Below are positions 12,783 through 18,729 of a DNA stretch of 64,000 nucleotides, one piece after another (the stretch's first letter is position 1; every line of letters starts with the position of its first letter). The notes under the pieces are model-generated. The model did no database searches, was not told the DNA's origin, and saw only the letters and a list, made by a program, of their open reading frames with translations. This stretch comes from an uncultured Poribacteria bacterium (GTDB taxonomy: Bacteria; Poribacteria; WGA-4E; WGA-3G), in NCBI GenBank assembly GCA_951812525.1, contig OX638316.1, positions 310,001 to 374,000 of the forward strand. Direction: 5' to 3'. The position numbers and the translations under genes are program-made.

Positions 12783-15700
12783 GTGAAATTTATGAACGAA
12801 TTGAAAATAAGTCGCTATTGTCGATTTTTTATTTTTTTGTTTACGTTAGCTGTCGTGCTCCCTACCGCAGACGCACAAGCCAATCTTGGACCTAAACCCC
12901 CGAATGTGGTGCCTAATGGCTGGAACTCCGGAAATACACAAAATACCCCCGCTCCTGAAGTGTGGATGCCGGATGCGAATCTCAGAGCAGTGGTTGAAGC
13001 CGAACTCGCGGCATGTGACCCTGCCCTGACACTCTCGCAAGACACTCTGGGGCTTTTACGTTCCATACTCGCTGATGGCTCAGGCCTGAGCCCAATAACG
13101 AATCTCACGGGCTTAGAACATGCGACTAACTTAGAATGGCTAGATTTGCGGGTGAATAGCATTACTAACGTTACACCCCTATCAGGTTTAGTGAATTTAA
13201 CTGGCTTAGATTTGGGATCGAATAACATCACTAATATTTCGCCGCTATCAGCGTTGGTGAATTTAGAACGCTTAAGTCTCTATGCGAATACAATCAACGG
13301 TGTTAGTGCGCTATCGGGTATGACAAGTATGAGGTCATTAAATTTATCCGTAACTGGCATCTCTGATATTAGTGATTTATCAGGAATGACTAATTTAATT
13401 GGCTTATATCTTGGGACGAATAACATCTCTGACATTAGTGTTCTATCTAATTTTGGCAGTTTAGAGAGTTTAAACCTCTATGAAAATAGGAACGATAATA
13501 GTGATGGTGTCTCTGATATTTCTGCTTTAGCGGATTTGACGAGTTTAACCTCCTTATCCCTTGGAATAAATAGCATCTCTGATATTAGTGATCTCTCAGC
13601 GTTAGTCAATTTAGAGTACTTAGGTATCGAGTCGAATCCTATCGATGATATTTCTACCCTAACGAATTTTCCGAACCTCGAGGCATTAAGACTGAATTTT
13701 ACTGACATCGATGATGATGATCTGACGCACCTATCGGGTTTGACGACGCTAGAGGTGTTATCTCTCGGCGCGAATGGTCTCTCTGATATTAGTGATCTTT
13801 CTGGGTTGGTAAATATGGAGAAATTAGATATCTCAAGCGGTAGCGTCTCTGATATTACACTGCTTGCCGGTATGGTAAATATGACGCATTTATCTCTCTC
13901 CTCGAATGACATCACTGATATTACACCGCTTGCCGGTATGGAAAATATGGATACGTTATTGCTCTCTGGCAATAGAATCAATCGTATCATTTCGTTATTG
14001 AATATGGAAGTCTTAGAGAAGGTAGATCTCTCTGTAAATCCAGTTGATAACATCTATGCGAATACATATACAGTGGAAACCTTACTGTCGAGGGGTACAG
14101 AAGTCATTATAGACGACTTAGTGGACACGCCAGACATCGGCTTCAAAGTTCCCCTTGATGTTCATCCCGCATCCCCAGTGAACGAGACGTTTCAGGTGTT
14201 CGCGAAGTTCCAGGGGCGAGTTGTGGGCTTCGACGTGTCAGAATTGGTATTAGCCCCGACGACAATCGCTTCTATCACATCCCAAGCGTTCACAATAACA
14301 GAAACAGAAGAGGGTGACTTTACTTATGCAGTGGATGTTACCCCGACGGACAGTGGCGAAGTGACCTTCAGTGTTGCTAAGCACGTGATGCGAGACGACT
14401 ATTATAACCGAAATGCGGCTTCGGATCCGTTGACGGTGGTTATAGATCTGGATGATCCGGGCGTCAGCTTGGATGTTCCTTCAGGTATCCAAACTGATGT
14501 GTTCCAGGTGTCTGTCATCTTCACGGAAGAGATGTCAGACCTCTCCACGGAAGAGATGTCAAATTTCGTTAATGCAGACCTTGTGTTAGGTGGGACGGGA
14601 ACAGTGTCTGTTGCGCCGTTTGAGACGGAAGATGATATCACCTATACAGCGTATGTTACGCCTGTGACAGATGGTGATATCACCTTCAGCGTTGCTGCAG
14701 GTGTGGCGACGGATCTTGCAGGCAACGCAAACACGGCTGCAACAACGAAGACTGTTTCTGTAGATGTTAAGCCGGAGGTCAGCCTGACGGTTCCATCGGG
14801 TGTTCAGAATAAACCGTTTACGGTGACGATCACGTTCACGGAGACTGTATCAGGCTTCGAGCAGTCAGAGCTGGTGTTAGATCCGAGGACACTCGCTTCT
14901 ATCTCATCCGAGGCGTTCACAATAACAGATAATGACACTACCTATACCGCAACGATTACACCAATGGGGGTTGGCGATGTCACCTTCAGCGTTGCTGCGG
15001 ATGTAGCGACCAATGCTGCTGGCACGCCAAACAATGCTGCGACATCGCAGACCGTTGCTGTAGATACTGTTGCCCCGGCCGTCAGCCTGACGGTTCCATC
15101 GGGAGTCCAAAATGCCGCGTTTGAGGCGACGTTCACATTCACGGAACCACTTCTTGAAACGGAGACACTTCCTGGATTTGTGGCATCAGATATTGTGTTA
15201 ACCGGACTGCCTGCTGAAGTCACGGATTTGCAACAGGATTCAGAAGACGTGAAGATTTATATCGCGACGATCACGCCGACTGACACACAAGCGGGAAATA
15301 TCACGATAAATCTTCCTGAGAATTCGGTAACGGATAAGGCTGGCAACGGAAATACGGCTGCGACGACACAGACGGTGTCTGTGGATTTACCCCCACAGGT
15401 CAAGTTCGATGTTCCACGCCGTCAGCAGTATGGTGCATTTAATGCAAAAATCATCTTCTCTGATCCGGTGACAGGTTTCATTAAGGATGATATTGAGTTA
15501 GGTGGCACCGCAACAGTGGCAATCACGGATTTTCAGGAAACGGATGAGAAGACCTATGATGTTGAGATTAAACCGACGTTGAAAGGTGATTTGACGATTA
15601 TCGTTCCAGCAGGTGTCGCATTGGATGAAGGAAACAATGGAAACATCGCTGCGACATCCGAATCTATACCTGTGGATGTGAATTTCGTCGTAGAGATCCC

Positions 15701-17525
15701 CGATGCAAGTCTGGCAGCGTTAATCCGTCATCAACTGAATTTGGATGCCAACGATGATATTACCAAGAGGCACATGTTAAGACTGACCACTTTGGGATAT
15801 CAACGTCATCCTAACTATCAACAAATAACGGACCTCTCCGGTTTGGAACATGCGACGAATCTGGAACGGTTAATTCTCCATAACACTAGAATAGTGGATC
15901 TCACTGTGCTTACGAATCTAACGAACCTAACTTGGTTAAACCTCAATAGCAGTGGTATAACTGACATCACTGTGCTTGTGAATCTAACGAGCCTAAACAC
16001 GTTACTGCTCCTAGATAATCAAATAACGGATGTCAGCCCATTCTCGACGATGTTAGGGTTACAAGGTTTATCCATCGCGGGAAATCCGTTTCTGGATACT
16101 TCACCGCTTTACCGTCTTCTCCATAATCCGGAAGCCGCTCTGACTTACGTGGACATTGCTATTTCGCAGTATCCACCTTGGGATGTCAATGAGGACGGTA
16201 GCGTGAATGCGACAGATGTGGCACTTGTGACAGCAGCACTGGGGCAGACTGGAAATGCGATAGTCGACCCTCATACGGATGTTAACGGGGATCAATCTGT
16301 CGATCAAACAGACGTAGACCTTGTGCAGATGTATGTCGAACCTCCTGCGTCAGAATGGATGCCGGATGTGAATCTGAGAAGGAAGATGCGAAGAAAATTG
16401 GACATCGCAGATGATACTGAGCTCACACAAGCGCGAATGACGCACCTAACGAGACTCGTTTTTATCAATGAACAGATCAGCGATATCACTGGTTTGGAAT
16501 ATGCGATAAACCTAACGGAACTTGTTTTTCGGAACACTCAGATCAGTGACCTTGAACCCCTCAAAGACTTGTCAAGCTTGGAAAGTTTGAAACTGGTAGA
16601 TAATACCATCAGTGACATCACCGCTCTTAGCGGGTTGACGAACCTGACGTTTTTAAATATATCGGGTAATACCATCACTGACATTACCGCTCTTGGCAGT
16701 CTGACGAACCTAACTGAGTTATGGCTGCGGGATAATACCATCAGTGATGTTACTCCACTGATGAGTTTAACGCAGTTGCAAAAGTTAAGGCTTAGTGACA
16801 ACCCGATTTTGGATACATCTCCGTTGTATCCACTCACGCAGGACGCGCTGTCGAGTGTAGATATAACAGTATCTCAGTATCAGCCTTGGGATGTCAATGA
16901 GGATGGTAGCGTGGATGCGACAGACTCAGCACTCGTCACCGCTGCCTTAGGGCAAACGGGAAATGCTATAGCAGACCCACGCACGGATGTCAATGGTGAT
17001 GGCACGGTAGATCAGGACGACCTAACGCTCGTAACGGATAATCTTGATACCAATAACCAAGCACCTTCAAGCAGTGGCATGTTTGCATTCTTGGATCAAG
17101 AGACCCTTAGGGCACTCGATCGAGGCGTGCTAGAGTCATATCTAAACGTCTTGCGTGCTGAGAGTGACGGTTCTCTGAAATACGAGCGTGCGATCGCTAT
17201 GTTAGAAAGTATTTTAGCGGCAACGCGCCCTGAGCAGACGCAACTGCTTGTAAACTATCCGAATCCGTTTAACCCGGAGACATGGATCCCGTATCACTTA
17301 GCGAATGCCAGTAACGTCCAGATCACGATTTATGATGTGCAGGGCACAGTCGTTCGGCGTTTAGACCTTGGACATCAGCGGGACGGCTACTACACGAGCC
17401 GTAGCCGTGCAGCATATTGGGACGGCAGAAACGTCTTCGGTGAACGCGTCGCAAGTGGTATCTATTTCTATCAACTCGAGGCGGATAATCTCTCACTACT
17501 TCGCAAAATGGTAATTCTAAAGTAG
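12783..17525 (+). CDS. Secreted LRR / Ig-like / dockerin mosaic protein with Por-type C-terminal tail
   Basis: A 1,580-residue predicted secreted protein. A signal peptide (to about residue 33) is followed by an internalin-like 22-residue leucine-rich repeat block (about 95-445). Next come five bacterial Ig-like domains of about 100 residues each (455-970), recognisable by VPSGVQ openings, FTE strands and a closing AATT-T-VSVD. Then follow LRR block 2 (970-1115), dockerin-like EF-hand pair 1 (DVNEDGSVNATDVAL and DVNGDQSVDQTD), LRR block 3 (1190-1350), dockerin pair 2 (DVNEDGSVDATDSAL and DVNGDGTVDQDD) and a C-terminal FlgD-like domain opening NYPNPFNPETWIPYHL. It likely acts as a calcium-stabilised adhesion or matrix protein at the cell surface. 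The start may be GTG 12783 or ATG 12792. Confidence 0.88.
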   Translation: MKFMNELKISRYCRFFIFLFTLAVVLPTADAQANLGPKPPNVVPNGWNSGNTQNTPAPEVWMPDANLRAVVEAELAACDPALTLSQDTLGLLRSILADGSGLSPITNLTGLEHATNLEWLDLRVNSITNVTPLSGLVNLTGLDLGSNNITNISPLSALVNLERLSLYANTINGVSALSGMTSMRSLNLSVTGISDISDLSGMTNLIGLYLGTNNISDISVLSNFGSLESLNLYENRNDNSDGVSDISALADLTSLTSLSLGINSISDISDLSALVNLEYLGIESNPIDDISTLTNFPNLEALRLNFTDIDDDDLTHLSGLTTLEVLSLGANGLSDISDLSGLVNMEKLDISSGSVSDITLLAGMVNMTHLSLSSNDITDITPLAGMENMDTLLLSGNRINRIISLLNMEVLEKVDLSVNPVDNIYANTYTVETLLSRGTEVIIDDLVDTPDIGFKVPLDVHPASPVNETFQVFAKFQGRVVGFDVSELVLAPTTIASITSQAFTITETEEGDFTYAVDVTPTDSGEVTFSVAKHVMRDDYYNRNAASDPLTVVIDLDDPGVSLDVPSGIQTDVFQVSVIFTEEMSDLSTEEMSNFVNADLVLGGTGTVSVAPFETEDDITYTAYVTPVTDGDITFSVAAGVATDLAGNANTAATTKTVSVDVKPEVSLTVPSGVQNKPFTVTITFTETVSGFEQSELVLDPRTLASISSEAFTITDNDTTYTATITPMGVGDVTFSVAADVATNAAGTPNNAATSQTVAVDTVAPAVSLTVPSGVQNAAFEATFTFTEPLLETETLPGFVASDIVLTGLPAEVTDLQQDSEDVKIYIATITPTDTQAGNITINLPENSVTDKAGNGNTAATTQTVSVDLPPQVKFDVPRRQQYGAFNAKIIFSDPVTGFIKDDIELGGTATVAITDFQETDEKTYDVEIKPTLKGDLTIIVPAGVALDEGNNGNIAATSESIPVDVNFVVEIPDASLAALIRHQLNLDANDDITKRHMLRLTTLGYQRHPNYQQITDLSGLEHATNLERLILHNTRIVDLTVLTNLTNLTWLNLNSSGITDITVLVNLTSLNTLLLLDNQITDVSPFSTMLGLQGLSIAGNPFLDTSPLYRLLHNPEAALTYVDIAISQYPPWDVNEDGSVNATDVALVTAALGQTGNAIVDPHTDVNGDQSVDQTDVDLVQMYVEPPASEWMPDVNLRRKMRRKLDIADDTELTQARMTHLTRLVFINEQISDITGLEYAINLTELVFRNTQISDLEPLKDLSSLESLKLVDNTISDITALSGLTNLTFLNISGNTITDITALGSLTNLTELWLRDNTISDVTPLMSLTQLQKLRLSDNPILDTSPLYPLTQDALSSVDITVSQYQPWDVNEDGSVDATDSALVTAALGQTGNAIADPRTDVNGDGTVDQDDLTLVTDNLDTNNQAPSSSGMFAFLDQETLRALDRGVLESYLNVLRAESDGSLKYERAIAMLESILAATRPEQTQLLVNYPNPFNPETWIPYHLANASNVQITIYDVQGTVVRRLDLGHQRDGYYTSRSRAAYWDGRNVFGERVASGIYFYQLEADNLSLLRKMVILK

Positions 17526-17700: not shown

Positions 17701-18729
17701 TTAGCGATAGATAGAGGTCTCAGGATAATAGCGTGCCCACGCGAACCAGTAGATATTAACAGCGGGGAGACGTTCCAAACGCGTCCCTTTTTCTTTTCCA
17801 GATGTTGCCTCGCCTGTAATGAGATTCCAGGAGGTGCCGACGTTATCCTCTACAAGATGTTTATCCTGTACACTAAAGGTTCGTACGGCTCCTGCCACGT
17901 TCCGGGTAAAGACCGCCGTTGCAAATGATGTCTTGTCGTGAAAAATAAGCAGTGGAACTTCGCCAAGCGTATCGTTAATGACAGGAGTTTTCGTAAAGTG
18001 CGTCAACGGGTAAGCACGGAACTGTGTCGTGCCATCTTTCGTCGGCACTTGAACCCCGACCACGAGGGTTTTATTTGGAAGCCTGTCATCGGTGTATTCC
18101 ATACCGCTCACACCTGCGCGCTGGCTGGCGTGATAGTCTGCATAAACATCTTGGTTCAGGCTTTCTCGCATCCCGCCTCTGGTAGGCACAGACAGGACCT
18201 GTGTTCTCGGATAATTTAAGGACCACGTTTTCCATGCAATCTGTGGTGTGGAGGCTAACGGCTTCAATTGCTTGCCCTTGAGCGGTCCCCGTATCGCCTC
18301 TCCAGTTATATGCGACCAGAGCGAACGGGTCTGATGGTCGTACATCAACAGTGCGTCCCTCCATAATTTACCGCTGACCCCGAAAGTATAAGTCTTACCG
18401 TCAAGATCACGACTATACACGATAGCCGTTTTGCAGAGCGGTCACCACGTAGTCGCAATGTTCAGTCCACCGACAACGTCGTTGACGATTTCGTGTCCAT
18501 TCAGTAGATAAAGCGAATAGGCGCGACTATCGTCGTTGAAGGTTACGCCGATAACAGGTGCATCTGCATCAAGTTTCGCTTCGTTGGCAGATACAAATTG
18601 TGGATCGGTGATAGCGGGTATAGCATCGAAAGGCAATAAAGTCCGGATTGCGTCATCGGTATAATCTGCGGCTGCTGCACAGAAGGCAACAAAAATCAGT
18701 AGTGAGAGGGTGATGCTGTAGTTTTTCAT
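17701..18729 (-). CDS. DUF3179 protein, candidate selenoprotein (in-frame TGA)
   Basis: One continuous frame from ATG 18729 to the stop at 17701 contains a single in-frame TGA (18442-18444) and would encode 342 residues. The N-terminus is a signal peptide (ITLSLLIFVAFCAAAADY). The family core follows: HEIVNDVVGG, then TTW-[TGA]-PLCKTAIVY, then TFGVSGKLWRDALLMYDHQT and LWSHITGEA. In DUF3179 relatives I know, the position of the TGA is the first Cys of a CPLC motif. An 8-bp stem with loop CGTGT begins 12 nt after the TGA. The C-terminal half is a second, degenerate copy of the domain (AYPLTHFTKTPVINDTLGE, SWNLITGEA) without the motif. The function of DUF3179 is unknown; a redox role is inferred. 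A nonsense mutation is the alternative. Confidence 0.7.
18409..18444 (-). promoter_or_regulatory. SECIS-like hairpin directly after the in-frame TGA
   Basis: On the mRNA strand the TGA at 18444-18442 is followed by 12 nt and then ACGGCTAT, loop CGTGT, ATAGTCGT (18429-18409). All eight pairs form, one as G·U. Twenty nucleotides separate the TGA from the apical loop, and a G is the second loop base. These fit the bacterial SECIS model as I remember it (short apical loop with an early G, about 16-37 nt from the UGA). Whether it binds SelB is untested. Confidence 0.5.

Follow-up and report, generated by a model that had tools for sequence, protein, structure and literature searches.

Does the in-frame TGA within a DUF3179 gene of an uncultured member of the Poribacteria terminate translation, or is it read as selenocysteine (Sec)? 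The locus lies in a stretch of 64,000 nucleotides (the window, i.e., that whole stretch) from a host genome of 5.06 Mb assembled as a single contig, and standard ORF calling cuts the gene into two. Taking the lines of evidence below together, we propose that the gene recodes UGA as Sec at an otherwise invariant cysteine, and we give this reading of the sequence data a probability of about 0.95. The two features on which the question turns are as follows.

17701 to 18729, minus strand: predicted DUF3179 selenoprotein gene of 342 residues, Sec being residue 96; the frame and the TGA are read directly and the family is assigned by a PF11376 match.

18442 to 18444, minus strand: TGA predicted to be read as Sec, where the family motif CPLC has its first Cys, in a column that holds TGA or Cys in relatives.

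The preliminary description of this DNA had noted two open frames of the same phase split by the TGA and seven codons, with family motifs continuing on both sides and the TGA at the first Cys of CPLC, all of which is borne out. The minus-strand frame runs from an ATG at 18729 through 95 codons to the TGA at 18444-18442, and from there in the same phase to a TAA ending at 17701; the downstream ORF (239 amino acids) has a GTG start at 18420, exactly seven codons past the TGA. In translation the context is T-W-(TGA)-P-L-C. When the read-through product was compared with Pfam, DUF3179 (PF11376) was the sole family matched, with one alignment crossing the TGA (E = 1e-78; profile positions 2-292 of 292) at 265 bits, far over the curated cut-off of 27 bits; an NCBIfam search returned no model matching the protein. 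The window holds fifteen TGA codons with at least 60 open codons on each side. At this one the flanking frames are spanned in full by one family model, and an obvious UxxC motif is lacking from the remaining frames that a TGA bridges.

Across 65 close orthologues, the median pairwise dN/dS is 0.078 upstream of the TGA and 0.106 downstream (0.101 with the hairpin described below left out). Because dN/dS is low downstream of the TGA, that part is evidently translated and selected as protein, and values of about 0.1 indicate purifying selection on both sides.

The nearest named relatives of the protein are all Candidatus Poribacteria (59-87% identical), and DUF3179 is present in 86 of the 146 relatives surveyed. 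In the genus, family, and order of the window, complete copies nearly all contain a single TGA; in the loci that were read it always falls in the identical column, which elsewhere is Cys or TGA and nothing else. TGA occupies this column in 73 of 96 motif-bearing loci of relatives, the remainder having Cys. Among the 79 GTDB loci of named organisms that could be scored, 35 have TGA and 44 Cys; the two sets overlap in part. The 35 named loci come from Poribacteria, Chloroflexota, Planctomycetota/Anammoxibacter, Nitrospinota, Marinimicrobia, Acidobacteriota, and Bacillota; all scorable archaeal loci in the same set have Cys. The first Cys/Sec column is invariant in diverse alignments, and on a quick 101-row tree with many open branches its state changes at least six times.

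These patterns bear on the possibility that the TGA reflects a true nonsense mutation or a misread TGC or TGT. Most of the relatives' genomes are metagenome assemblies, in which errors of this kind might be suspected, and one distant relative has a copy that looks degenerate (L116; G128:C169:59533-59994), with TGA, TAG, and TAA inside. Against this, close relatives do not carry random stops near the site; the same single TGA recurs in dozens of independent assemblies, dN/dS is low beyond it, and the hairpin that follows is conserved and covarying, so that we regard a pseudogene or sequencing error as having next to no chance of being correct. The genome with the degenerate copy has selA, selB, and tRNA-Sec.

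If the codon is recoded, then the Sec machinery is expected in the genome, and its absence would have counted against recoding; all four genes sought, selA, selB, selC, and selD, are present. selB (2709354-2711252; 336 bits, over the cut-off) directly adjoins the tRNA-Sec gene (2709224-2709313; 78 bits; anticodon TCA), selA lies at 879346-880701 (E = 1.5e-178), and selD at 3914052-3914975 (E = 4.6e-107). The selD gene has its own in-frame TGA in the context KCAGUASK (L049, G000:C1:3914052-3914975). Judged by its sequence, SelD is a selenoprotein too, so default ORF calling places its start late. It thus provides an internal example of identical recoding, with an in-frame TGA decoded by the same machinery in a family different from DUF3179.

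Further, the TGA in DUF3179 tracks the Sec machinery. Among 22 genomes checked, the well-assembled TGA carriers have selB, and four genomes lacking a selB over the cut-off (G089, G113, G130, and G140) carry Cys. Two TGA carriers of 73-83% completeness (G034 and G057) gave only fragmentary or paralogous selB matches, and two others (G030 and G050) have selB with no clear selA; the missing genes in these four are probably gaps or divergent copies. The same data speak to a second alternative, namely, that the TGA stands for some residue other than Sec (for tryptophan, which it encodes in code 4, or for a near-cognate residue inserted by readthrough) or that the halves are separate proteins, as the GTG seven codons past the TGA might suggest. 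This we consider very unlikely: relatives have Cys in the column and in no case Trp, the preceding codon encodes Trp as TGG, the Sec machinery is present in the genome, lineages without selB have Cys in the column, and the family fold spans the TGA.

Bacterial Sec insertion depends on a hairpin in the mRNA, for which the following candidate was considered.

18410 to 18428, minus strand: putative SECIS element with a 7-bp stem (CGGCTAT/ATAGTCG) and the loop CGTGT, predicted from synonymous conservation and covariation.

The full sequence, A-CGGCTAT / CGTGT / ATAGTCG-T, starts 12 nt past the TGA, with the loop at 18421-18417 and a G at its second position (18420). The hairpin had been described in just these terms, except that its 8-bp stem resolves into 7 conserved pairs and one optional A-T pair (18429/18409). 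In the 65 close orthologues, we compared synonymous entropy over 119 columns in which the amino acid is at least 90% conserved. Codons +5 to +9 after the TGA (ACG GCT ATC GTG TAT) show the five lowest values of the set, four of them with zero variation, against a mean of 1.29 bits elsewhere. Were the columns exchangeable, the chance of these five codons ranking lowest would be about 1 in 1.8e8, a figure that is a guide only because of relatedness and unequal degeneracy. Codon +10 is only AGC or AGT, which keeps its pair as G-C or G-U.

From phylum to phylum the stem varies in sequence with pairing kept (CGGCTAT/ATAGCCG, CGGGAAT/ATTCCCG, CGGCCAT/ATGGCCG, CTGGAAT/ATTCCAG, CGGGTGT/ACACCCG). When 34 Sec sequences from at least seven phyla were set against 57 Cys homologues at the same codons, 93.7% of stem cells were paired in the former versus 45.4% in the latter, and at least 6 of the 7 pairs formed in 31/34 Sec versus 2/57 Cys sequences. 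All 34 Sec sequences have G as the second base of the loop. In the same 34, cells changed on both sides number 40, as opposed to 11.6 +/- 2.6 on shuffling (40 was reached in none of 500 shuffles); when the partner is shifted by 1-3 columns, pairing falls to 29-47%. The folding z-scores of individual sequences are weak (mean -1.0 for Sec forms and -0.1 for Cys forms), and the SECIS assignment is therefore carried by covariation and synonymous conservation rather than by energy; an Rfam scan of the window gave no match at the gathering score.

The preliminary description held that no DUF3179 selenoprotein had been described. This was wrong: two reviews list DUF3179 (PF11376) as a prokaryotic selenoprotein family with the Sec motif UxxC/T (PMC9312934, PMC13188914), both citing Zhang and Gladyshev 2007 on the symbiont of Olavius algarvensis. 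As far as those listings go, the 2007 family is the same Pfam family, and UxxC/T covers the UPLC of the Poribacteria gene; that selenoprotein came from the delta-proteobacterial symbiont, the present one from Poribacteria, and the comparison is by listed motif. Going by the list, it probably corresponds to OS_HP1, a UxxC family in the GOS paper (PMC2398784). A study of sponges notes that most symbiont bins, drawn from various phyla, have SelA together with SelB (PMC5649159), which fits the finding in Poribacteria. In the literature searched, we found no paper combining Poribacteria with a selenoprotein, no account of deep conservation of the DUF3179 SECIS, and none of a predicted DUF3179 fold of two Rieske-like halves without Fe-S ligands.

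What kind of protein would carry this Sec? Three further features, the last two from an AlphaFold2 model, bear on its architecture.

18661 to 18729, minus strand: likely signal peptide MKNYSITLSLLIFVAFCAAAADY, read from the sequence, with the N terminus at low confidence in the model.

18196 to 18561, minus strand: predicted N-terminal Rieske-like half, carrying Sec (residues about 57-178).

17716 to 18045, minus strand: predicted C-terminal Rieske-like half, with neither Sec nor Cys (residues about 229-338).

The likely signal peptide at its N terminus makes export of the protein to the periplasm or beyond probable. The model (pLDDT 91.5) shows an internal two-fold repeat, and the Sec-bearing half modelled alone (residues 25-205) reached a pLDDT of 93.8. 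Each predicted half resembles Rieske ferredoxins and the NirD-type small subunits of nitrite reductase (3c0d, 4aiv, 2jo6), with Z values of 8-9 to the ferredoxins and 6.8-8.4 to the NirD-type chains: for the C-terminal half, the VIA Z against Rieske ferredoxins is up to 9.4 (rmsd 3.2 over 92 residues; residues 233-328), and for the Sec-bearing half the best is 8.4 (97 residues, 3.6 A) to 3c0d, all of these being near levels reachable by unrelated folds. Foldseek gave the C-terminal half a Rieske probability of up to 1.00, with E no better than 0.007. The resemblance is nevertheless credible because nearly all leading rows, including those for the Sec-bearing half, are of the Rieske type and the two separately modelled halves agree.

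Unlike Rieske proteins, DUF3179 has its two predicted halves in tandem, and its translation contains no pair of the ligand motifs C-x-H and C-x2-H. Nor do the sequence profiles match: hhalign of DUF3179 against ten Rieske proteins of the same genome gave a probability of 0.3% and no ligand correspondence. As this link is not significant, it is the predicted structure that carries the Rieske statement. A PDB sequence search found no relative with a solved structure, the one row returned being at chance level (E = 0.63). With ligands absent and profiles unlinked, the model looks like a Rieske-fold protein without a cluster, and we do not claim membership in the Rieske Fe-S family (PF00355).

Some variation in architecture was seen among relatives. 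In 14 genomes of the same genus and family of Poribacteria (L086-L099), an insertion of ~30 or more residues lies between the halves and splits the profile match near position 195, the TGA and hairpin being retained. A divergent branch from the same class and phylum (L100-L102; G083, G080, and G079) has U-H-L-C in place of U-P-L-C and REIIND in place of HEIVND, with a poorly matched C-terminal half. Gene neighbourhoods in twelve relatives revealed no conserved partner of functional value. In three Poribacteria, judging by eye from sequence, DUF3179 is followed by short-chain dehydrogenase-like and phytanoyl-CoA-type dioxygenase-like genes. In the window, an ORF of 1580 amino acids (12783-17525, plus strand) appears to have leucine-rich repeats, repeated beta-sandwich-like segments, two dockerin-like segments, and a C-terminal sorting-like end.

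At the putative active site, the U-x-x-C redox motif of the preliminary description stands in part: UPLC is present here, and the motif is not universal. The +3 Cys is found in 71/73 Sec forms of the relatives and 33/35 of the named GTDB set, with Thr, Ala, or, in the degenerate copy, Glu in the others; UPLA occurs in Anammoxibacter (L134) and Bacillota (L157), CPLA in Scalindua (L137/L138), and UPLT in L028. Since the +3 Cys is usual but dispensable, the first Cys/Sec is likely the essential residue; as Ala or Thr takes the +3 position in some Sec forms, a thioredoxin-like UxxC exchange cannot be assumed. The thioredoxin-fold UxxC selenoproteins (Prx-like, DsbA-like, and GOS_C) share with DUF3179 the U-x-x-C spacing and a bacterial SECIS just past the UGA, whereas the predicted fold of DUF3179 differs and its +3 Cys is not universal. 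Trp precedes Sec in 70/73 and 35/35 Sec forms of the two sets, and most Cys forms have Tyr or Phe there; the few W-C forms (L137, L138, L151, and L156) may be former selenoproteins. Scalindua has Cys in the column where its relative Anammoxibacter has Sec. Glu80, Asn83, and Asp84 do not vary in the diverse alignment and His79 hardly does, making these four candidate active-site members.

We envisage that, when the ribosome meets UGA at codon 96 of the mRNA, SelB sitting on the hairpin, which begins 12-13 nt further on, would supply Sec-tRNA(Sec), formed by SelA using selenophosphate that SelD provides, and that translation would then run for 246 further codons. In the mature protein, a Rieske-like beta fold lacking Fe-S ligands would occur twice in tandem, with Sec96, next to Trp95, as the chemically active residue of the first repeat. 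Where Cys99 is present it would probably form a selenenylsulfide with Sec96, and in forms without it an external thiol would resolve. Catalytic redox use is the usual role of Sec, and a redox selenol in an exported selenol/thiol protein, with the first Cys/Sec doing the chemistry, is in our judgment likely; the redox role, as well as any substrate and the resolving step, we infer. One could instead accept the recoding and suppose that Sec96, within a Rieske-like fold that has degenerated, serves to bind a metal or cofactor. The modelled likeness of both halves to Rieske proteins, the closeness in sequence of the invariant Glu80, Asn83, and Asp84 and the nearly invariant His79, and the replaceable +3 Cys are consistent with such a role; it is nonetheless unlikely given the missing CxH and CxxH, the lack of ligand correspondence with the same-genome Rieske profiles, the usual use of Sec, and a Sec turn that would not match the Fe-S loops by strand order.

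We tentatively suggest, at rather less than even odds, that DUF3179 might comprise exported tandem Rieske-like domains devoid of an Fe-S cluster, with a selenol/thiol active site in one repeat, i.e., a selenoenzyme on a scaffold other than thioredoxin, with chemistry unlike the usual UxxC exchange and widespread in Poribacteria and Chloroflexota. With the Poribacteria gene, a phylum of sponge symbionts gains a securely supported case of stop-codon recoding, and the DUF3179 SECIS is now well sampled, with a stem that covaries across phyla. The predicted Rieske-like scaffold provides a first concrete structural hypothesis for DUF3179, a domain found in bacteria and archaea, and the family offers natural Sec/Cys pairs for comparison of activity.
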